Assembly: GCA_038746285.1 (NCBI GenBank)
Contig: JBCDKT010000044.1
Coordinates: forward strand, 1-33,803
DNA: 33,803 nucleotides
From: Bacteroidota bacterium
Lineage (GTDB): Bacteria; Bacteroidota; Rhodothermia; Rhodothermales; JANQRZ01
Direction: 5' to 3'
In this document: positions 7,732-29,063 of the stretch, piece after piece
Layout: each line of letters begins with the position of its first letter
How positions within the stretch are numbered: position 1 is the stretch's first letter
Notes under the pieces: model-generated
Seen by the model: only the letters and a program-made list of their open reading frames with translations
Told to the model about the DNA's origin: nothing
Database searches by the model: none
Translations under genes and position numbers: made by a program

Positions 7732-8478
7732 TCAGGCGGGGTGCGTGCCGAGGGGTCGGCGTGGCACGGTAGTGCGGTGGTCGGCCTCGTCGCCCAGGAA
7801 CTCCCCGTTCTGCGCCACGGTCGCGAGCGTGTTCAGCGCCAGCAGCCCGAAGCCCACCTTCGCTACAACGTCCAGGGCCGTGAATAGCCCGGCCTCCCAC
7901 GTGTCACCGACCACGTCGAGGCCCTCGGGCGAGATCAGCCAGACAACCGGATACAGCGTCCACAGGAACACGTGGACCGTCACTAGGCGCCGGAACGCGC
8001 TGACCGACCGGGGGTGGGCCGCGACCGCGCTCCGCCGGTACGGTCCGAGGAGCATGTAGGCCACGCCGAGATAGGCCCCGCACGAGACGACATACCACGT
8101 AAGCGCCCGCGCGTCCTCGGGGAGCAGTGTCGCGATGAACCCGGTCCCGATCATGAACGTATTGGCCCCGATGAGCTGGGCCGCCAGCACGTTCCGGCTC
8201 GACGCGATGAGCGTGAGGTCGAGGAGCAGGAGCGGCGTCGTGAGCCCCCACGTGGCGTAGCGGACCCACGTCGTCTTCGTCCCGTCGGCCGAGACGAACG
8301 CCCCGAACCCCATCGCCATCGTGAGGTAGAGCGCGAACGCGACGAGGCAGATGAAGAAGTTCAGCGTGTAGAGGATCTCGCGCGGGCGGTGCTCAGCCCT
8401 CGCCGCGCCGAGCCCGAACACGACCGAGCCGAGCGCCATCGCCGCTGTGCCGATCCAGTACCACGTCGTCGCTGTCAT
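7732..8478 (-). CDS. Microbial (type 1) rhodopsin with T-T-D motif
   Basis: A 248-aa seven-helix retinal protein. Helix C reads WVRYATWGLTTPLLLLDL, giving Arg73, Thr76, Thr80 and Asp87 at the bacteriorhodopsin positions R82, D85, T89 and D96. Helix G reads LDVVAKVGFG with Asp203 (D212) and Schiff-base Lys207 (K216). LWTLYPVVWL of helix F is canonical. Glu residues near the extracellular release group (SPEG and TWEAGLF) are kept, while the D115 position is Asn106. The primary proton acceptor is thus Thr, as in halorhodopsins, but the cytoplasmic donor Asp is kept. An inward anion pump is the most likely function. It probably forms an operon with the channel-like gene; no carotenoid or retinal synthesis gene is in view. 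Confidence 0.93.
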   Translation of the reverse strand: MTATTWYWIGTAAMALGSVVFGLGAARAEHRPREILYTLNFFICLVAFALYLTMAMGFGAFVSADGTKTTWVRYATWGLTTPLLLLDLTLIASSRNVLAAQLIGANTFMIGTGFIATLLPEDARALTWYVVSCGAYLGVAYMLLGPYRRSAVAAHPRSVSAFRRLVTVHVFLWTLYPVVWLISPEGLDVVGDTWEAGLFTALDVVAKVGFGLLALNTLATVAQNGEFLGDEADHRTTVPRRPLGTHPA

Positions 8479-8539: not shown

Positions 8540-8559
8540 ACCTGAAAAGCCGCTCAGGT
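8540..8559. promoter_or_regulatory. 20-bp palindromic element A (rhodopsin / nucleotide-domain intergenic)
   Basis: ACCTGAAAAGCCGCTCAGGT, with perfect 6-bp arms and an 8-nt centre. It lies 61 bp before the rhodopsin ATG and 48 bp before the gene at 8608. It shares the ACCTGA-N8-TMAGGT pattern of the copper-island elements, being closest to the element upstream of the response regulator gene. Confidence 0.5.
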
Positions 8560-8607: not shown

Positions 8608-10383
8608 ATGCCGAACACGATCCGCCTCTTCATGTGGGGCTACCAGCGTGACTTCCAGATCTCGGCGAAAGTCTCTGCCGAGTCGCTGTTCGGCGCTCTG
8701 GACCCTGCCCTGGACCCCGAGGTCGTCCTCGTCGGTGGCCGACTCGGCTCCGAGAGCAACCGCCACCCCCTGTGCGTGGACCCCGAGGACGGCGACATCC
8801 CACTCGACCAGCTTGACGGCCTCGCCGAGCAGGTCGAACAGGCACAGCGGGACGACCCCGAGAACGAGATAATTCATTCGCACCCCGTCGCTGAGCAAAA
8901 CTGCAAGCGACGGGTCCGTTGGCGCGCGTTCTCCGAAGGCGTCGCGCGGACGCTGGCCCTGCACCGGCCCGACCGAGCCTTCTTCGCCTCGTTTCCCCAA
9001 CCCGTCGAACACCACCTCGTCACGTGCGTGCTCCACCTTGACCGGGGCGCTCTGGAGGCTCACCCTCGGCTCCACCAGGCCGACTACCTCCACCGGTTTG
9101 TCGTGCCGACCTCACTGGTCGAGGCCACAATCCAAACGTTCCTCGACAAATGCACCGACGAGCTCAGTCGGTCCGAGCCTGGCATGTGGCTCTCCGGACG
9201 GGGACCCGCCGATCTCCTGCGGAACGCGGGGCGCCGCCTCATGACCAACCCAGGTCGGCGCCTCGCCTGGGGCGGGCAGAACGACGACCTCTACGACCAA
9301 GTCGACGCGGTCTCAGCGCTTCGCTACGAGGGGGCCGAGGGGAAAGGGCGGCTCCTACTCACCGACAAGGACGGGACCGGGGTCCGGCGCACGCTGACGC
9401 TCGAGTCGCCGGTCCCGTTGAAGGCGGGCCGGGCGGCCCGCAAGCTCGTCGAGATGGCGACCTCCCAACTCGACCTCCTCGCCACGCCAGTAGCGGGGAT
9501 CTACGGGCTCGGCACGGCCGACCCGGACGATGACCCATCCGAGGAGCGCGTCTTCGAGGTCGTCTTTCTCAAAGGAAACGCCTGGGAGCTCCGCCACGCC
9601 GGGGTCCCGCTCATGCGCGTCGCCGGCGGCATCCCCGAGCTCCCACGCGACCCCATCCAGCGCGCCGACTTCGACACCTTGGTCAAACGGGTTCTCGGGT
9701 CGCCCGGTGACCTCGACCCAGACGCCCTGTGGACCGCCGTCGAGGCCGCGCGCCGCCAACGCCACGGGACTCTCCTCGTTGTCTCCACCGGGGCCGCGTC
9801 CGAGGCTGCCCGGCTCGCCGCCCAGAGCACGCCGGTCGAGCCGGTCACCCTCACGCCCGCTCTCGTCCACGCCGTCTCGGCCATCGACGGGGCGGTCCTC
9901 GTGGACGCCGCCGGGACCTGCCACGCCGTTGGTGCCATCCTGGACGGCATGGCGGCGGACGGCGGCGATCCCGGCCGAGGCGCCCGCTACAACTCGGCTC
10001 ACCGGTACGTCGAGACCGCCGCGCGCGACCTCGGCCACCGCACGCTAGCCGTCGTCGTCTCCGAGGACGGGATGGTCGATGCCCTCCCCGCACTGCGTCC
10101 CCAACTCGATCTCGCCGAGATCGAGACGCGGCTCGCAGACCTCCGCCACCACCGCGAGAACCCCCACGAGAGCCGGACGCTATTCTGTCGCACCGAGGCC
10201 TGGCTTCGCAAGCACGCCTTCTACCTCGACGCCGAGCAGTGCGAGGAGGTCAACGAGGCCGTCCGGAGTGTCCGCCAAGCGTGGCATGAGGCCGAGCCCA
10301 CAGCCATCCGGGTCGTGGACCGCCCGCTGGCACCCCACCCCGACTTCGATCAATCCTACCTCACGGAGACGGAAGAACCCTAG
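8608..10383 (+). CDS. Large protein with DisA_N-like (diadenylate-cyclase-related) nucleotide domain
   Basis: A 591-aa protein. The C-terminal part shows the layout of the DAC/DisA_N superfamily: IDGAVLVDAAGTCHAVGAIL with the DGA motif near residues 427-429, RGARYNSAHRY near 457-467, and VVVSEDGMVDALP near 481-492. In true diadenylate cyclases the second motif carries RHR; here it reads RYN, so it may bind or sense a nucleotide rather than make c-di-AMP. This resembles the divergent DACN-type sensor domains predicted for nucleotide-based conflict systems. The N-terminal 350 residues match nothing I recognise. A small reading frame follows at 10412. Function unknown. Confidence 0.7.
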   Translation: MPNTIRLFMWGYQRDFQISAKVSAESLFGALDPALDPEVVLVGGRLGSESNRHPLCVDPEDGDIPLDQLDGLAEQVEQAQRDDPENEIIHSHPVAEQNCKRRVRWRAFSEGVARTLALHRPDRAFFASFPQPVEHHLVTCVLHLDRGALEAHPRLHQADYLHRFVVPTSLVEATIQTFLDKCTDELSRSEPGMWLSGRGPADLLRNAGRRLMTNPGRRLAWGGQNDDLYDQVDAVSALRYEGAEGKGRLLLTDKDGTGVRRTLTLESPVPLKAGRAARKLVEMATSQLDLLATPVAGIYGLGTADPDDDPSEERVFEVVFLKGNAWELRHAGVPLMRVAGGIPELPRDPIQRADFDTLVKRVLGSPGDLDPDALWTAVEAARRQRHGTLLVVSTGAASEAARLAAQSTPVEPVTLTPALVHAVSAIDGAVLVDAAGTCHAVGAILDGMAADGGDPGRGARYNSAHRYVETAARDLGHRTLAVVVSEDGMVDALPALRPQLDLAEIETRLADLRHHRENPHESRTLFCRTEAWLRKHAFYLDAEQCEEVNEAVRSVRQAWHEAEPTAIRVVDRPLAPHPDFDQSYLTETEEP

Positions 10384-10723: not shown

Positions 10724-12183
10724 GCGGTATCCAGGCAAGGCAGCGCCGCCCAGAACGTGGCCCCCTGCCCCGGCCCACCACTCTCGCACCCCACCTCGCC
10801 ACCGTACCCCTCGACGATGGCTTTGACGATCGCGAGCCCGAGCCCGCTCCCTGACTCGGCCTGGACCTCCGGCGTGTCGGCCCGGAAGAACCGGTCGAAC
10901 AGCCGCTCGCACGTGGCGTCGTCGAACCCCGGGCCGGAGTCCGTCACCTCGAGCCGGGCCGCGTCCAGGTGCCGCCCGTCCAGGTCCCGGTGACGCAGCG
11001 TGACGTGGACCCGGCCACCGGTCGGCGTGTACTTGACCGCGTTCGAGACCAGATTGTCGACGACCTGTGCGAGGGGGGCGGTCTCCGCCGCGATCCGGAC
11101 GTCGTCGTCGGCGTCGACCGTGAGGGACAAACCCTTGGCGTCGGCGTCGCTCCGCACCCGCTCGACGCGCTGGCGGACGAGCGCGCCGAGGTCGACGCGG
11201 GCGTCGGGCGTCCGGACGAGCGACTCGGCGCGGGCGAGCTCGAGGAGGCCCTGAACCGTCCCCGTCATCTCGGCTACGTCCTCGACGACCCGGCCCAGCG
11301 TCTCGCGGTAGGCCTCCGGCTCGCGCTCGCGGCGGAGCGCGACCTCGGCCTCGCTCCGGAGCGTCGCCAGCGGCGTCATCAGCTCGTGGGCGGCGTTCGC
11401 CGTGAACCGCCGCTCGCGCGCGACCGACGCCTCCAGCCGGGCGAGGAGCCCGTTGAACGTCTCGGCCAGGTCCGTCAGCTCGTCGCGCGTCTCGAACTAC
11501 GACGGCAGCCGGCCGCCCAGCCGCGCCCCGTCGCCGGCCATCCGGTCGGCCGCCTCGGTCAGCACGGCCACGGGCCGGAGCGCGCGGCGCGCGAGCCACC
11601 ACCCTGCCCCGAGCGCGAATAGCACGCTCAGCGCCACGCCGAGCGCGAGCATCCGCCCCAAGTCGCGGAGCTCGCGGTGGCGGCTCCACTCGATCCCCGT
11701 GACCTCGACGTACCCCGCCACGTCCCCGCCCGGACCCCGGACCGGCGCGACGAGCGACCGCGCGGGCTCGTCGTCCCAGGTCCGGCTCAGGCGCAGGACG
11801 CCGCCCTCGGGGAGCGCGACGCCCAGCGCCGGGTGCCGCCCGACGTTCTCCGATTGGTAGGTCACCCGGCCCTCGGGCGAGAGCACGCGGACGTACGTCC
11901 CGCTCGGTCCGTCGAGCCGGGTCGCCACGGCCTCCGTTTCCTCTAGCGCCCCGGCGTCCACGCCGTCCGGCCCGACCGTGAGGAGCGGCTCGATCACGCC
12001 CCACTCGTGGTCGAGGTGGCGGTCGAACGAGCGGTGCGCGGCGGCGTGGAACCCGACGTAGCAGAACACGGCGAACGCGCTCAGGAGCAGGAGCAGCGTC
12101 AGCGCGTACCACAGCGCAAGCCGGGCCGAGATGGGGAGGGTGCGGAGGCGGGCCATGCCGGAAGAACGCGACGCGGCGCTCAC
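10720..12183 (-). pseudogene. cusS: CusS-like sensor histidine kinase interrupted by in-frame TAG
   Basis: Membrane sensor kinase: TM1, a periplasmic domain of about 110 residues, TM2, HAMP, DHp and HATPase. The frame is open across the full length except for a single TAG at 11497-11499, inside the HAMP region between GGRLPS and FETRDELTDLAE. Downstream the frame resumes unchanged: phospho-acceptor His in NAAHELMTPLATL (His266; Met replaces the usual Arg of HELRTPL), N-box DNLVSNAVKYT, and G boxes DSGPGFDD and GSGLGLAIVKA. The intact product would be about 487 aa. It starts with GTG overlapping the TGA of the response regulator (an ATG at 12156 is an alternative). A nonsense mutation, readthrough, two separate polypeptides or a base error could each explain it. 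Confidence 0.85.
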
Positions 12184-12938
12184 GTCGCGCCACTGGCGGT
12201 CTTACCAGGCACCATCCGGTAGCCGACGCCCCGGATCGTCTCGACGCGCGGGGCGTCGGCCGCGCCGGACGCCTTGACCGCGTCGTCGAGCCGCTGGCGG
12301 AGCCCGCTCACGGTCACGTCGAGGGCGTTGTCGGTGACGTAGAGCGCGTCGCCCCAGACCCGCTCGGCGAGCACCGTCCGCGAGAGGGCCGCGTCGGCGC
12401 TCCGCATGAACACCTCCAGCATCGCGTACTCCTTCGGGCGGAGGTTCAGGACGGCCTCGCCGGCTGTTCCGATCATCGTCGCCCGTCGGCGCTCGCCGTC
12501 GAGCGCGAGGGGGCCGACGCGGACGACCCGCTCCACGTCCGAGAGCGGGGGGCGGCGCAGGAGCGCCCGGAGCCGGGCCACGAGCTCCTCGAACGCGAAT
12601 GGCTTCGGTAGGTAGTCGTCGGCGCCGGCGTCGAGCCCCGCGACCCGGTGCTCGACGTCCGAGAGCGCCGTCAGCATCAGGACGGGCTGGTCTTTCCCCG
12701 CGGCGCGGACGCGCTCGACGAGGGTCTTCCCGTCGCCCCTCGGCAACCGCCAGTCGACGACGAAGGCGTCGTAGCCGTTCGCGAGCGCGAGCCGCTCGCC
12801 CTCCTCGGCGTCGCCCGCCACGTCGACGCGGTACCCCTCCTCCTCCAACCCGCGGCGGACGGAGTCGGCGAGTCGGGCCTCGTCTTCGATGAGCAGGACC
12901 CACATCGGGGCGTCGGGGGAGGGGAACGGGTCGGACAT
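12180..12938 (-). CDS. cusR: OmpR-family response regulator (CusR/CopR-like)
   Basis: A 252-aa two-component regulator. The receiver domain has acidic pocket IEDEA, phospho-acceptor Asp62 in FVVDWRLPRGDG, Thr90 in LMLTALSD and Lys112 in LPKPFAFEEL. A winged-helix output domain follows (LRPKEYAMLEVFMR, then VSGLRQRLDD and IRGVGYRM). The ATG at 12938 was preferred to one at 12971, because the latter would overlap a 20-bp palindromic element (12970-12989). With 12938 the element sits about 31 bp upstream, fitting autoregulation. Its gene is followed by the interrupted sensor kinase and is divergent from the copper genes. Copper/silver sensing is inferred from context. Confidence 0.88.
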   Translation of the reverse strand: MSDPFPSPDAPMWVLLIEDEARLADSVRRGLEEEGYRVDVAGDAEEGERLALANGYDAFVVDWRLPRGDGKTLVERVRAAGKDQPVLMLTALSDVEHRVAGLDAGADDYLPKPFAFEELVARLRALLRRPPLSDVERVVRVGPLALDGERRRATMIGTAGEAVLNLRPKEYAMLEVFMRSADAALSRTVLAERVWGDALYVTDNALDVTVSGLRQRLDDAVKASGAADAPRVETIRGVGYRMVPGKTASGAT

Positions 12939-12969
12939 GCAATACCCACGTGGAGCGGACGGGACCGGC

Positions 12970-12989
12970 ACCTTAACGCCTTTTCAGGT
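12970..12989. promoter_or_regulatory. 20-bp palindromic element B (cusR / DUF2231 divergent promoter)
   Basis: Read on the minus strand it is ACCTGAAAAGGCGTTAAGGT. It lies about 31 bp before the response regulator ATG and 59 bp before a small plus-strand frame at 13049. It fits the ACCTGA-N8-TMAGGT consensus of seven sites in the window and could serve both divergent units. Confidence 0.65.
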
Positions 12990-14228: not shown

Positions 14229-14248
14229 ACCTGAGCGCCTTTTAAGGC
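14229..14248 (+). promoter_or_regulatory. 20-bp palindromic element C (before multicopper oxidase)
   Basis: ACCTGAGCGCCTTTTAAGGC, 58 bp before the multicopper oxidase ATG at 14307. The last base differs from consensus (C for T). Same orientation relative to the gene as elements D, E and G. Confidence 0.65.
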
Positions 14249-20589: not shown

Positions 20590-20609
20590 ACCTGATCAGC
20601 TTTTAAGGT
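20590..20609 (+). promoter_or_regulatory. 20-bp palindromic element D (before CPH-type copper ATPase)
   Basis: ACCTGATCAGCTTTTAAGGT, 60 bp before the ATPase ATG at 20670. Both conserved ends are intact. Confidence 0.68.
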
Positions 20610-22935: not shown

Positions 22936-22955
22936 ACCTGAGGGGCATTTAAGGT
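22936..22955 (+). promoter_or_regulatory. 20-bp palindromic element E (before copper-storage gene)
   Basis: ACCTGAGGGGCATTTAAGGT, 84 bp before the ATG at 23040. Confidence 0.65.
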
Positions 22956-23039: not shown

Positions 23040-23453
23040 ATGCGTACTCAGGACATGCTCTCGAAGCACCCCAACCCCTCCGAGCACCTCGACAAGATCG
23101 TCGCGCTCGTCAACAGCGCGTTCGCCTGCGAGCAGTGCTGTACGAGCTGCGCCGACGCCTGCCTCGACGAGGATGGCGACATGGACCTCCGGTACTGCAT
23201 CCGGACCAACCTCGACTGCGCCGACATCTGTGCCACGACGGGCCGCGCGCTCTCGCGCCAGACGCAGCCGAACGCCAAGGTCCTCCGCGCCCAGCTCGAG
23301 GCCTGCGTCGCCGCCTGCGACGCCTGCGCCGACGAGTGCTCGAAGCACGCCGATATGCACGACCACTGCCGCGTGTGCATGGAGTGCTGCCGCGAGTGCT
23401 CCAAGGCCTGCCAGGCCCTCCTCGACGCCATGTCCCAGGGCGCGGCGGCCTAG
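23040..23453 (+). CDS. csp: Cys-rich four-helix-bundle copper-storage protein (Csp/DUF326-like)
   Basis: A 137-aa protein with 18 Cys residues spaced along predicted helices: FACEQCCTSCADAC, DCADIC, EACVAACDACADEC, and HCRVCMECCRECSKAC. This is the pattern of copper storage proteins, which bind many Cu(I) ions inside a four-helix bundle. No signal peptide is seen, so it fits the cytosolic Csp3 type. It is preceded by palindromic element E and followed by a hairpin terminator, so it is likely made at high level on its own when copper is present. Confidence 0.9.
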   Translation: MRTQDMLSKHPNPSEHLDKIVALVNSAFACEQCCTSCADACLDEDGDMDLRYCIRTNLDCADICATTGRALSRQTQPNAKVLRAQLEACVAACDACADECSKHADMHDHCRVCMECCRECSKACQALLDAMSQGAAA

Positions 23454-23520: not shown

Positions 23521-24435
23521 ATGACCGACCAGGCCCTCCTCGCCGCGTGGGGCGCAACCACGACCGCCGGGTACCTCGCCACGCACGCGATGGGCACGGC
23601 TGGGACCGAGCTGTTCGGGCTGAGCGTGCACGGGTCCATCGTCGCCGTCTGGGCGCTCCTGGCGCTCGTCCCCGTCGGGATGACCGTGGCGAAGGCGGCC
23701 CGGCGCTCGGCCGGCGCGCACCACTGGGTGTGGGTCGGGCTCGTCGCTGCGGCCATGGCGGCGAACGTCGGCGTGGCGGCCTCCGGGATCAGCCACGGCC
23801 ACGACGGGCCCGGGCACGGCGGGTCCACGGGCGCGTCAGCCCACGGGGAGCCGGGGCACCACGGCGGCTCGTCCGGCTCGGAGAGCGAGACGACCAACAC
23901 TGCGAGCGGCGACGCCGCCGGTGCACAGGAGCCGGACGACGGGCACGCCCACCCCAACGGAGGCCACGGCGACGACACGAGCACCGCGGGAGCAGGCGGG
24001 GGCGACCCCGGCGAGGGTGCCCCCGACGGCCACGCCCACCCGGACGGCGGGCACGGCGGTGACACGGGCCCAGCGGCCTCGGGGACGCCCGGCTCCCCGT
24101 CCGCCAGCGCCACGTCGCCCGAGGGCGGCGGGGCCGAGCACGGCGGGAATGGGTCTGGCGGGTTCGTGGACACCGCTGAGCTCCAGCACGCCGCCTTCTT
24201 CCACCTCTGGTTCCTGGTCGGCGCGCTCGGGTTCGCGTTCAGCGCCGCCGCCGCGGAGGGCGGCGTCCGGCGGGCGCTCTACGGGCTCGCCGCCGTCCTC
24301 AACGCGCTCATGGTCCTCGCCCTCGTTGCCGCTCCCGGCACTCGGGACGCCGCGTTCCTCATCGCCGCGGCCGTCCAGGGGCTCCCGATGCTCCTCGACC
24401 TCCCGCTCCGCGCCGGCCAGCACGTGGCGGCCTAG
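23521..24435 (+). CDS. Membrane protein with long His/Gly-rich loop
   Basis: A 304-aa protein with about three N-terminal membrane segments (within residues 5-92), a hydrophilic loop of about 125 residues, and about three C-terminal membrane segments (about 225-297). The loop is low complexity, rich in Gly, His, Asp and Ser, with a repeated unit (DDGHAHPNGGHGDDT and PDGHAHPDGGHGGDT) and other His clusters (SHGHDGPGHGG, HGEPGHHGG). Such loops bind divalent metals in efflux and resistance proteins. It starts 68 bp after the Csp gene and its stop overlaps the convergent DUF305 gene. No transporter family is recognised; a copper- or zinc-buffering membrane protein is a guess. Confidence 0.7.
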   Translation: MTDQALLAAWGATTTAGYLATHAMGTAGTELFGLSVHGSIVAVWALLALVPVGMTVAKAARRSAGAHHWVWVGLVAAAMAANVGVAASGISHGHDGPGHGGSTGASAHGEPGHHGGSSGSESETTNTASGDAAGAQEPDDGHAHPNGGHGDDTSTAGAGGGDPGEGAPDGHAHPDGGHGGDTGPAASGTPGSPSASATSPEGGGAEHGGNGSGGFVDTAELQHAAFFHLWFLVGALGFAFSAAAAEGGVRRALYGLAAVLNALMVLALVAAPGTRDAAFLIAAAVQGLPMLLDLPLRAGQHVAA

Positions 24436-25298
24436 CGGACGGCGACGGCGGCCGTGACCGGCTGGCCCCCGCGCGTGACCGGCTGGTCGGGCGAGCCGGC
24501 GCCGGAGAACTCGAACCGGCCGATCTCGCCGGAGTCGTCGTGGAGCATGACGTGGACCGTCCCCGACGGCGTCGCGTCGAGGTCGATGGGCACCCGCTCC
24601 GACGTCCCGTGCATCACGAACGACCGCCCCACGACGCGCGAGGCGTCGGGGCCGCCCCCGTCCGCCTCGGGGTGGACGACGAGCCACGAGTCGGACTCGA
24701 CCTTGACCGAGTCCACGACGATCACGTCGCCGCGGACCGGGTCGGCGCCGACGAACAGGGCCGGCGAGCCCGGCACCGGGCCGGTCCGCGCGTCTGAGCC
24801 GCCGGTCACCTCCTGGTCTGCGGGCGCCAGCGGCTCGAACTCGTAGTCGGAGCGTTCCAGGTCGTTGATAAGTGCCTCCATCTCGACGATCTCGCGCTTC
24901 TGGGCGATGATGATCTCGTCGGCTAGGCGGCGCACGCGGGGGTCCGAGATCGTCGCCCGCTCCGAAGTCAGGATGGCGAGGGAGTGGTGGGGGATCATGG
25001 CCTCCATCCAGTCCACGTCGTCGACCGACGTCTGGGAGCGGAGCAGCCAGAACCCGAACGCGAACAGCACGGCGCTCCCAGCGAAGATGGCGACGTTTTT
25101 CGTCCTGTCCTTGTACATGTGGAGCATGAACGCCAGCATGACGACGGCCATCGCGGCGCCCATGTAGAGCGCCATGAACGACTTCGTCGCGCTCCACCAG
25201 AGGTGGTCGGTCTCGTAGACCGTCGTGTACATCAGGACGAGCATGACGACCGTTGACGTGACGATCATCGCGAAGAAGCGGGCGTAGGAGGCCTTCAT
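24432..25298 (-). CDS. DUF305 membrane protein fused to a DUF7282-like domain
   Basis: A 288-aa protein with about three N-terminal membrane helices (residues 8-90). A DUF305 segment follows (VDWMEAMIPHHSLAILTSER, then EIIIAQKREIVEMEALI), whose paired His residues are thought to bind copper. The last 110 residues (VIVVDSVKVESDSWLVVHPE, FVMHGTSERVPIDLD, VHVMLHDDSGEIGRFEF) resemble DUF7282, a small beta domain more often seen alone. The ATG at 25298 was chosen; an ATG at 25370 would add a Pro-rich stretch. Palindromic element F lies 81 bp upstream. DUF305 proteins commonly occur in copper-resistance loci. Confidence 0.82.
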   Translation of the reverse strand: MKASYARFFAMIVTSTVVMLVLMYTTVYETDHLWWSATKSFMALYMGAAMAVVMLAFMLHMYKDRTKNVAIFAGSAVLFAFGFWLLRSQTSVDDVDWMEAMIPHHSLAILTSERATISDPRVRRLADEIIIAQKREIVEMEALINDLERSDYEFEPLAPADQEVTGGSDARTGPVPGSPALFVGADPVRGDVIVVDSVKVESDSWLVVHPEADGGGPDASRVVGRSFVMHGTSERVPIDLDATPSGTVHVMLHDDSGEIGRFEFSGAGSPDQPVTRGGQPVTAAVAVR

Positions 25299-25379: not shown

Positions 25380-25399
25380 ACCTGAGCACCTTTTAAGGT
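25380..25399. promoter_or_regulatory. 20-bp palindromic element F (before DUF305 gene)
   Basis: ACCTGAGCACCTTTTAAGGT, identical to element G. It lies 81 bp upstream of the minus-strand DUF305 ATG, in inverted orientation compared with the other gene/element pairs, which suggests a symmetric binding site rather than a directional promoter. Confidence 0.65.
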
Positions 25400-25459: not shown

Positions 25460-26260
25460 TCAGGCCGCGTCGAAGACGGGCCGGAAGCCCGCGCCCTCCA
25501 CGGCGGCGCGCACGGCCTCGCGGTCGGCGCCGCCCGAGAGCCGGACGACGGCCGGGCCATCGAGCGTGAGCCGCTCGACGGTCACGCCGGGCGTCCGGTC
25601 GAGCGCGCGCGTGGCCCCGGCGACGCAGCCGCCGCAGGTCATGCCCTTGATGTTGAAGGTGAGGGCGTCGTCGGTGTTCGGGTTGTCGGTGTGCATGGGA
25701 GTAGGGGAGAGTGAAACAGGGGGGTTGGGTAGGGCGGCGCAGGTGCAGTCGAGGCACCCAGCGCACGCCCGGCAGACGTCTTCGAGCCGTTCGCGGAGCG
25801 CCGCGCGGGCGCGGTGCCGACGGACGCGGAGCGTGCCGGCCGACACGCCGAGCCGGTCCGCCACCTCGGCCGCAGGCTCGCCGTCGAGGTCGGCGCGGAG
25901 GACCTCGGCGGCCTCTGGCGCGAGGTCGTTCAGGAGCGGTTGGTAGCACGCGCAGAGCCGGGGCGCCTCCTCGGTCGGCATCACGGCGTCGGGCTGCTCG
26001 TCTGCCCACGCCGTCTCGCGGCGGCCCGCGGCCTCCCGTCGGCGGTGGGCGTCGACGGTCGCGTTCCGGACGACGCGCCACAACCAGCGCGTGAGGTCGG
26101 CCTCGCCGTCCATCGGCGGCGCGGCCTCGACCGCCTTCAAGAGCGCGTCCTGGACTACGTCTTCGGCCACGCCAGGGCCGAGCCGCTGGCGGACGTAGGC
26201 GACGAGCGGCTCGGCCTGTGCGGCGAGCGTGGCGTCGAGCAGGGTGGGGGAGAGAGGCAT
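25460..26260 (-). CDS. CorE-like metal-sensing ECF sigma factor fused to CopZ-like HMA domain
   Basis: A 266-aa protein in one uninterrupted frame. Residues 1-160 are an ECF sigma factor: region 2 VVQDALLKAVE and WLWRVVRNATVDAHRRR; region 4 EPAAEVADRLGVSAGTLRVR. Cys103-Ala-Cys105 lies in the linker and a Cys cluster (Cys163, 166, 169, 172, 174) follows region 4. A CxC linker plus C-terminal Cys-rich domain is the signature of CorE-like (ECF44) factors, which sense copper or other metals directly without an anti-sigma factor. After a Pro/Ser linker, residues 198-264 form a heavy-metal-associated domain with NIKGMTCGGC (Cys209, Cys212) and GFRPVF. The ATG at 26260 was preferred to a GTG at 26284, which falls in the promoter -10. 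It lies 46 bp downstream of copA on the same strand. Confidence 0.88.
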   Translation of the reverse strand: MPLSPTLLDATLAAQAEPLVAYVRQRLGPGVAEDVVQDALLKAVEAAPPMDGEADLTRWLWRVVRNATVDAHRRREAAGRRETAWADEQPDAVMPTEEAPRLCACYQPLLNDLAPEAAEVLRADLDGEPAAEVADRLGVSAGTLRVRRHRARAALRERLEDVCRACAGCLDCTCAALPNPPVSLSPTPMHTDNPNTDDALTFNIKGMTCGGCVAGATRALDRTPGVTVERLTLDGPAVVRLSGGADREAVRAAVEGAGFRPVFDAA

Positions 26261-26281: not shown

Positions 26282-26314
26282 CACAAACGCGGCGGCCCGT
26301 CGAACGTTACCGAG
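26282..26314 (-). promoter_or_regulatory. ECF-type promoter of the sigma-HMA gene
   Basis: On the minus strand: CTCGGTAACG, 14 nt, then GCGTTTGT. GGTAAC to CGTTTG spacing is 16 bp, normal for ECF sigma factors. It ends 21 bp before the ATG at 26260. The same flanks recur before copA with a diverged spacer. The -35 overlaps the copA stop codon. Autoregulation by the sigma factor is inferred. Confidence 0.65.
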
Positions 26315-28919
26315 CGGCCACCGCGGCGGAGCCGACTGTTGGTGGTATGAAGCGCCGCAGGCGGAGCGCGTTCGTCAGCACGAACACCGACGACAGGCCC
26401 ATCGCCGCCGCGCCGAGCACGGGCGAGAGCAGCACGCCGAGCGCCGGGTACAGCACGCCCGCCGCGACCGGGATCAGCACGACGTTGTAGGCAAAGGCCC
26501 AGAACAGGTTTTGCTTGACGTTGCGGAGCGTGGCCGCCGAGAGCGCCTGGGCCTCGACGAGCGCCGTGAGGTCGCCGCGCATGAGCACCACGTCGGCGGC
26601 CTCGATGGCGACGTCGGTCCCGGTCCCAATCGCGACGCCGACGTCGGCCTGGGCGAGCGCGGGGGCGTCGTTGATTCCGTCGCCGACGAACGCCACGTGC
26701 AACGGGCGTCCGCCGCGTCCGCCCTCGCCTTGGAGATCGCGCACGGCCTGGGCCTTGTCGGCGGGGAGCACCTCGGCGAGCACCTCGTCGATGCCGAGGC
26801 GCCGCGCGATGGCCTCGGCCGTGGCCCGGTTGTCGCCGGTGACCATGGCGACGCGGAGCCCGGCGTCGTGGAGCGCGTCGATGGCCGCGGGCGTCGTCGC
26901 CTTGACCGGGTCGGAGACGGCGAGGGCCGCAACGAGCACGCCGTCGACGGCCGCGTAGAGCGGCGTCTTGCCCTCACCCGCGAGGGCGCCAGAGGCCGCG
27001 GCGAGAGGCGCCACGTCGAGCCCGACCCGGGCCATGAACCGGTCGGCTCCGACCTCGACGCGGCGGCCCTCGACCGTCCCGCGCACGCCGAAGCCGGGCA
27101 CGGCCACGAAGTCGGACGCCGCCGGCAGGTCGATACCGCGCTCGTCCGCCGCGCGCACGATGGCCGCCGCGACCGGGTGCTCGCTCGGCACCTCGACCGC
27201 GGCTACAAGCCGGAGCAGTTCCGTTTCGTCCAGCCCGGCCTCTGGCGCTAGCGCCACGTCGGTCAGCGTCGGGCGGCCCTCGGTGAGCGTCCCCGTCTTG
27301 TCGAGCGCGACCACGTCAGCCTCGGACAGCGTCTGCAACGCCTCGCCCTTGCGGAAGAGCACGCCCAGCTCGGCCGCCTTCCCGGTCCCCACCATCACCG
27401 AGACGGGCGTCGCGAGCCCCATCGCGCACGGGCACGCGATGATGAGCACCGAGACCGCGGCCACGAGCGCGTAGGTCAGCGCCGGGCTCGGCCCGACGGC
27501 GAGCCAGACGCCGAACACGAGCGCGGCGATCACGAGCACGATGGGCACGAACACGGCGACCACGCGGTCCGCCAGCGCCTGGATCGCGGGCCGCGACGCC
27601 TGGGCGTCCTCGACGAGCCGGACGATCTGGGCGAGCACGGTGTCGGCCCCGACGCGCGTCGTCCGCATGAGCAGCGCCCCGGCCTGGTTGACGGTCCCGC
27701 CGACGACCTCCGCGTCCGCGCCCTTCTCGACCGGGACGGGCTCGCCGGTCACCATCGACTCGTCGACGTAGCTCGTGCCCTCGGTGACCACGCCGTCCAC
27801 CGGCACCTTCTCGCCCGGCCGCACGCGGACGACGTCGCCCACGGCTACGTCCTCGATGGGGACCTCGGCCTCGACTGGGCCGGTGCCCGGTCCACCGTCG
27901 CGGACCACGCGGGCCGTCTTTGCCCTCAGCCCGAGGAGCGCGCGGACGGCGTCCGACGTCTGGCCCTTGGCGCGGGCCTCGAACCACTTGCCGAGCAGGA
28001 TGAGCGTGATGATCGTCGCCGACGCCTCGTAGTACACGTGGACCGCGCCCTCGGGGAGCACGCCCGGCAGGAACGTCGCGACGACGGAGTACCCGTAGGC
28101 CGCCGACGTGCCGAGGGCGACGAGCGTGTTCATGTCGGGCGAGCCGTGGCGGGCCGCCGCCCACCCGGCGCGGTAGAATCGGAGGCCTGGTCCAAACTGG
28201 ACCGCTGTCGCCAGCGCGAACGCCACGAGCCAGCGCGTCTGCATCGGGACGAGCCCGTCGATCCAGGCCATCCCACCGGGGACCGCCATCGGCACCATCT
28301 CCATGAGGAACAGCGGGAGCGTGAGCCCGGCGGCCCACAGGAGTCGACGCCGCAGCCGCTGGCGGTCGAGCTCTCGCGCCTGGCGCTCAGCGTCCTCCGT
28401 CGTCGTCCCGCCCACGGCCTCGACGACGTCGTAACCCGTCTTCCGGACGGCCTCGTAGAGCGCCTCGACGTCGGTCCCGGCGGCGTAGCGGACGCGGGCG
28501 CGCTCGGTCGCCAGGTTCACTGACGCCTCGACCACGCCGTCGGCGCCTTGCAGCGCACGCTCGACGCGCCCGACGCACGCCGCGCACGTCATCCCACCCA
28601 CGGCGAAGCTCACCTCCTCGGTCCGCACGTCGTAGCCCGCTCGCTGGACGGCCTCGGCGAGCGCCAGAGGCGTCGTCTCGGCCGCGTCGAACTGGACGGT
28701 CGCCCGCTCGGTCGCGAGGTTGACCGTCGCCTCGTGGACGCCGGGGACCTTCGACAGCGCCTTCTCGACACGGCCCGAGCACGCGGCGCACGTCATGCCC
28801 TCGACGCCCAGCGTCGCGTGCGAGAGCGGCCGGGGCGGGCCGACTACGGCACCGTCGCCGGACGGGCTGGCGTCGGCGGCAGGCGGGTCGGAGGGCAGGG
28901 CAGGGGAGGGGTGGGGCAT
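26307..28919 (-). CDS. copA: P1B-1-type Cu(I)-exporting ATPase CopA (CPC motif, two HMA domains)
   Basis: An 870-aa copper pump of the inner membrane. Two N-terminal HMA domains carry GMTCAAC (Cys44/47 and Cys112/115). Eight transmembrane helices follow, with the Cu(I) motif CPC at 496-498 ([13 protein letters not shown]), actuator [12 protein letters not shown], phosphorylation Asp540 in [14 protein letters not shown], and hinge [12 protein letters not shown]-terminal YN (FAYNVVLIP) and MxxSS (MGLSSV) motifs fit P1B-1 pumps. The first about 35 residues are Pro/Ala-rich. Transcription probably starts at the ECF-type promoter 21 bp upstream, and the sigma-HMA gene follows, so pump and copper sensor form one unit. 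Confidence 0.96.
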
Positions 28920-28939: not shown

Positions 28940-28972
28940 GACAAACGCAGCGGCTGTCGTCCCGTTACCGAG
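28940..28972 (-). promoter_or_regulatory. ECF-type promoter of copA
   Basis: CTCGGTAACG, 14 nt, then GCGTTTGT on the minus strand, ending about 21 bp before the copA ATG at 28919. The flanks (10 and 8 bp) are identical to the promoter at 26282-26314 while only 5 of 14 spacer bases match, which is what a promoter under selection should look like. Confidence 0.65.
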
Positions 28973-29043: not shown

Positions 29044-29063
29044 ACCTGAGCACCTTTTAAGGT
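29044..29063 (+). promoter_or_regulatory. 20-bp palindromic element G (before the cus operon)
   Basis: ACCTGAGCACCTTTTAAGGT, 26 bp before the GTG at 29090, in the divergent region between copA and the cus genes. It contains a 12-bp inner palindrome (ACCTTTTAAGGT). Confidence 0.68.

Follow-up and report, generated by a model that had tools for sequence, protein, structure and literature searches.

A CorE-type sigma factor joined in frame to an HMA domain in a bacterial copper island

Gene content and setting of the locus

The window analysed here (the whole stretch of 33,803 nucleotides, positions 1-33803 of G000:C44) is a copper island that includes genes for a two-component regulator and kinase, a multicopper oxidase, CopB, two P-type ATPases, and Cus-type efflux, including CusB and RND genes. 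A gene on the reverse strand (25460..26260 (-)), referred to here as sigma-HMA, reads from ATG to TGA without interruption and is translated into 266 residues. Directly upstream of it lies copA (26307..28919 (-)), which encodes a P-type Cu ATPase with two N-terminal HMA domains and has 86-90% identity in relatives; downstream is a gene for a DUF305/DUF7282 protein (24432..25298 (-)). The nearest relatives of the window, flank included, are in family f11 though the genome is assigned to f1, suggesting plasmid transfer or misbinning. The f11 relatives of the contig are often located on contigs of 113-170 kb (G047, G048, and G050).

Domain architecture of sigma-HMA

The N-terminal part of the protein contains Sigma70 region 2 (Pfam PF04542, Sigma70_r2, 7.8e-10; residues 19-76, 26033..26206 (-)) and Sigma70 region 4 (PF08281, Sigma70_r4_2, 5.5e-09; residues 109-155, 25796..25936 (-)), and the C-terminal part contains an HMA domain (PF00403, 1.7e-07; residues 201-259, 25484..25660 (-)). 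All three exceed the Pfam gathering cut-offs, with the HMA domain at 32.0-35.2 bits against a cut-off of 24.8, and the CxxC motif of the latter is present as GMTCGGC. The alignment places a CxC motif (C103 and C105, 25946..25954 (-)), a hallmark of CorE-like sigma factors (PMC8999054), in the sigma2-sigma4 linker. It is followed by a Cys-rich domain, CRACAGCLDCTC (residues 163-174, 25739..25774 (-)), with the pattern CxxCxxCxxCxC, in which C163, C166, C169, C172, and C174 are the equivalents of CorE C181, C184, C189, C192, and C194. When three fused relatives and a CorE-like sigma factor from Verrucomicrobia are aligned with the protein, these five cysteines and the CxC pair do not vary.

Between the Cys-rich and HMA parts is a C-rich linker of 14 codons (25697..25738 (-)), the position of which matches the stop-plus-leader region between two separate genes in the distant relative G002. 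The junction reads ALPNPPVSLSPTP-MHTD. A sequence-only reading of the window had proposed one uninterrupted frame linking a CorE-type ECF sigma factor, with CxC at 103-105 and five cysteines at 163-174, to a complete HMA domain with MTCGGC through a junction containing a Met, and had recommended the Pfam search for the three domains; the frame, the positions, and the domains all proved to be as described. Membership in two curated models was not recovered: the SigZ model (TIGR02959) gave 77.7 bits against a cut-off of 168.65, and the model for CopZ-type chaperones (NF047957) gave 46.7 bits for the free HMA form against a cut-off of 85. An AlphaFold2 model built from a five-sequence alignment (mean pLDDT 72, pTM 0.36) has a good HMA fold (beta-alpha-beta-beta-alpha-beta), disorder across the linker (164-196), and no fixed orientation or contact between the HMA domain and the sigma factor.

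Distribution and origin of the fusion

Seven gene copies, distributed over six genomes, carry the fused frame without interruption: the window, G046, G047 (a near-complete assembly, with two loci), G048, G049, and G050. The 5' end of the G046 copy sits on another contig. The fused relatives share 74-83% identity and all belong to the same order (Rubrivirga and relatives). Since G046 and G048, as well as G049 and one of the G047 loci, form near-identical pairs, the copies represent five distinct fused sequences. No fusion was found beyond the six genomes among 114 genomes of the order, and none was added by 395 sampled genomes of the phylum or by the plasmids and viral contigs searched. In a scan of ~85,000 species, only members of this lineage carry sigma-HMA among the matches listed. 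Sequencing or assembly error was rejected as the cause of the fusion, as the same open frame is found in all seven copies. The sequence-only reading had asked whether the fusion is conserved, and within this one lineage it is. A stop between the two parts in relatives, which that reading had considered evidence against the fusion, is absent from every close relative and present in the distant G002. Its statement that no sigma-HMA fusion has been described agrees with the literature searched, in which we found none. Sigma-HMA is thus a real, conserved, and so far undescribed variant of the CorE-type sigma factors.

The arrangement in G002 (46% identity) is informative about how the fusion may have arisen. 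Its CorE-like sigma factor has an ending, CRACAEHGCLDCTC, that resembles the sigma ending in the fusions and terminates in ...CTTLS-TGA; after 17 nt comes the ATG of an HMA gene, and then copA. The HMA part opens with MNTNTQ in both G002 and G049, and that of the fusions begins at the corresponding place. G002 therefore has the same parts as neighbouring genes with a TGA between them, suggesting that the fusion probably came from loss of a stop. Judged by these sequences, a lost stop and a retained start would be the simplest account, and it is possible that the change went in the other direction, with an older fusion split into the two-gene state of G002.

A third state is present on contig G048:C3, where copA is followed by a free HMA gene (L095 4583-4810) without a neighbouring sigma gene. 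This HMA gene is intact, with pN/pS of 0.38-0.62 against the fused copies. Its leader, CTCACACGCCTCCC, resembles part of the G049 linker, TTTCACACGCTTCCC, which suggests that a sigma gene was deleted there. The same genomes contain a second CorE-like sigma factor without HMA (L096, L108, L109, and L110; 42-46% identity), and no HMA domain directly follows the other CorE-like sigma factors of the order that were examined. In Myxococcus xanthus, CorE (MXAN_3426) controls the HMA gene MXAN_3427. A Manganitrophus plasmid has a gene annotated as a "cation transporter" directly upstream of a CorE-like sigma gene, and an annotated HMA gene before copA nearby; we take "cation transporter" to be the usual annotation name of HMA proteins. 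Together with G002, these neighbourhoods indicate that CorE-like sigma and HMA genes have repeatedly been neighbours.

Promoter-like elements and the probable regulon

In the fused islands, copA and sigma-HMA are each preceded by the element GTAAC-N16-CGTTTG or a one-base variant. In the window, the putative sigma-dependent promoters of sigma-HMA (26284..26310 (-)) and of copA (28942..28968 (-)) both have the exact form; like the others described here, they are sequence matches rather than mapped start sites. The element is 18-23 nt 5' of the sigma-HMA start and just upstream of copA, and its spacer is always 16 nt while the intervening bases vary. In G050 the element at sigma-HMA differs by one base (CGTTTA), as does that at copA in G046 and G048 (CGTCTG). 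Genome-wide, the exact pattern matches twice in the window's genome and four times in G047, in every case at copA or sigma-HMA; elsewhere in the order there are 0-3 chance matches per genome. A looser pattern gives one match in 400 kb of G047. In G002, the form GTAAC-N16-CGTCTT has three matches in the genome, two of which are at the sigma gene and copA.

By sequence, GTAAC-N16-CGTTTG conforms to the published rule for CorE sites, which places AAC at -35 and a G 16-18 residues on. Upstream of the G048:C3 copA, which lacks the sigma gene, GTAAT...CGTCCG reads as if it were a decayed sigma promoter. Within the window's genome, the element is present only at copA and sigma-HMA, so the probable regulon would be copA plus sigma-HMA itself.

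A probable second start within the fusion gene

The ATG at 25694..25696 (-) is a probable second start that would give a free HMA protein of 78 aa. This Met is fixed in all fusions amid variable linker neighbours, and it matches the start codons of the separate HMA gene in G002 and the free one in G048:C3. Start contexts were scored with a position model built from 115 starts and 1,230 internal ATGs (cross-validated AUC 0.90), the training starts being called by rule in a single genome, G047. The HMA Met scores 17.3 in the window and 11.6-17.3 in the six fusions tested, above all 1,230 internal ATGs, with the caveat that richness in C is expected of any Pro/Ser-rich linker; the other Mets of the same genes score between -6.4 and 3.2. 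Starts in G047 lack a Shine-Dalgarno signal (11% vs 14% in a control stretch) and are typically preceded by C-rich leaders. A conserved Met within a variable linker and a start context above that of internal ATGs suggest that a free chaperone is likely made besides the fusion protein, which lends plausibility to the earlier proposal of an internal start yielding a free CopZ. One further small free HMA frame (G000:C33, 84 aa) is present in the window's genome, so the internal start is not the sole possible source of a chaperone.

Proposed mechanism and alternatives

From the fusion and its conservation, the two-gene state of G002, the shared promoter-like elements, and the leader-like context of the internal ATG, we infer a model in which copper sensing, promoter use, internal initiation, and metal transfer between domains would be connected as follows. 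A CorE-type sigma factor would have acquired a CopZ-like HMA domain at its C-terminus when the stop of a sigma gene beside an HMA gene was lost. Metal bound to the Cys-rich domain and the CxC motif would let the sigma factor direct RNA polymerase to the GTAAC-N16-CGTTTG promoters of copA and sigma-HMA, forming an autoregulated copper switch. The transcript would probably be translated into both full-length sigma-HMA and a free 78-residue HMA protein that starts at the retained internal ATG and would carry Cu(I) to CopA. We hold stop loss, an autoregulated switch, and probably two products to be the probable reading, with somewhat better than even confidence. In the long form, the HMA domain on its flexible tether could give Cu(I) to the Cys-rich domain or take it from there, an exchange that would speed shut-off as CopA lowers copper. 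If this happened while the internal-start chaperone fed CopA, one message would set sensing, pump transcription, and delivery; we regard this fuller scheme as tentative, and the main role of the HMA domain may be that of a free chaperone, produced from the internal start and serving CopA.

It is rather unlikely, in our estimate, that the fusion is incidental, i.e., that the sigma stop was lost by drift, the tethered HMA domain is a tolerated passenger, and HMA functions solely as a free chaperone initiated at the internal ATG. The internal ATG having the strongest start context tested agrees with this, as does the survival of an intact, constrained HMA gene without a sigma gene in G048:C3. So does the weak constraint on the linker (dN/dS of 0.66, compared with 0.37 for the sigma part and 0.34 for HMA), which is also predicted to be disordered. 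The lack of stops in the linker was rejected as proof of selection, since all five frames stay free of stops in 47-72% of neutral simulations, a nonsignificant result that is in keeping with a C-rich linker staying stop-free by chance. On the other hand, the five distinct linkers (14, 15, 19, 15, and 16 codons) imply about three indels, each of which preserved the frame (crude chance 0.04), whereas differences of 1 and 5 nt are seen in the nearby non-coding leader, and the frame has been kept in seven copies. These comparisons of sequence hint, if weakly, at selection for the joined protein itself.

The opposite view, that only the full-length protein is made and the conserved Met merely opens the HMA segment, fits the uninterrupted frame, the natural C-richness of Pro/Ser-rich linkers, and the flexible tether in the AlphaFold2 model. 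It appears improbable given that the Met is invariant among variable neighbours, corresponds to a start codon in G002 and G048:C3, and has a context score exceeding that of every internal ATG. We consider it slightly more doubtful still that the sigma factor senses another thiophilic metal, such as Zn or Cd, and that its HMA domain is not a copper chaperone. M. xanthus CorE2, which has the same motifs, responds to Cd and Zn (reviewed in PMC8999054), and the HMA score falls short of the CopZ model, yet the gene is located within a copper island with copA, multicopper oxidase, CopB, CusB, and RND genes, and the putative promoters are at copA and sigma-HMA itself.

Comparison with known systems

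Sigma-HMA most resembles CorE of M. xanthus and the CorE-like ECF sigma factors (formerly ECF44, now in ECF238), with which it shares sigma2 and sigma4, the CxC linker motif, and a copper gene neighbourhood. The four invariant cysteines of CorE (181, 184, 192, and 194) correspond to C163, C166, C172, and C174, and Cys189 to C169; mutation of the CorE residues matching these cysteines changes the copper response. Further shared traits are AAC at -35, control of copA- or HMA-type genes (putative for sigma-HMA), and the lack of an adjacent anti-sigma gene, the neighbours of sigma-HMA being copA and the DUF305 gene. However, CorE ends at the Cys-rich domain and its HMA gene is separate, while sigma-HMA carries HMA joined in frame, has two residues fewer between the second and third cysteines (C166-C169), and has no C206 equivalent that we could see. 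The corE-HMA-copA locus of G002:C8 has the same sigma type, an adjoining HMA, and the same promoter spacing at sigma and copA, but differs in the TGA between sigma and HMA and in gene order (sigma, HMA, copA rather than copA, sigma-HMA).

ECF41 and ECF56 are likewise ECF sigma factors with a fused C-terminal regulatory domain (PMC3426412, PMC7730460). Their fused domain has a SnoaL-like fold, whereas that of sigma-HMA is of the metal-binding HMA type. With CopZ-type chaperones the protein has GMTCxxC, the HMA fold, and a genetic link to copA in common; unlike them, it has its chaperone domain encoded within a sigma-factor gene and scores below the NCBIfam CopZ cut-offs. In E. coli, a programmed frameshift in copA also yields a copper chaperone. 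One gene there gives a copper chaperone besides a larger protein, as is probable for sigma-HMA, but the mechanism there is a frameshift in the pump gene, whereas the sigma gene described here probably uses an internal start. PMC9548414 refers to frameshifting in bacterial copA.

The authors of the CorE work left open how sigma factors of this type cooperate with copper trafficking in the cytoplasm and which components act upstream of these factors. A natural fusion of a sigma factor with a Cu(I)-carrier-type domain, with two-gene and sigma-less relatives for comparison (the latter in G048:C3), makes this question directly testable, and the likely regulon of copA and sigma-HMA is compact enough to be rebuilt in a laboratory strain. 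If both products are made, a single bacterial gene would encode both a transcription factor and a metal chaperone, which is rare.

Other features of the copper island

A 20-bp imperfect dyad, ACCTTAAAAGGTGCTCAGGT, is present upstream of the DUF305 gene (25380..25399 (-)), with an exact copy between copA and the divergent gene (29044..29063 (-)). Allowing up to three mismatches, the dyad ACCTTAAAAGGCGYTCAGGT occurs seven times in the contig, in both orientations and beside most copper genes (8540-8559(+), 12970-12989(-), 14229-14248(-), 20590-20609(-), 22936-22955(-), and the two sites above), and it is confined to the fused genomes plus one stray. This distribution raised the suspicion that it is a sigma promoter, which was set aside because the sites lie in both orientations relative to the adjacent copper genes and form an imperfect dyad. 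The dyad is probably the box of the island's OmpR-type response regulator (12183..12971 (-)), its most likely reader, a close homologue of which (84-88%) is present in all dyad genomes except the incomplete G049 and the stray. The gene for a DACNG-DACNH-DAC protein, a diadenylate-cyclase-like sensor (8608-10380(+)), adjoins copper genes and has a copy of the dyad ~50 nt upstream. A Cys-rich protein (23040-23450(+)) without a Pfam match at 1e-5 resembles a four-helix copper storage protein, and a microbial rhodopsin gene (7735-8478(-)) is located at the edge of the island.
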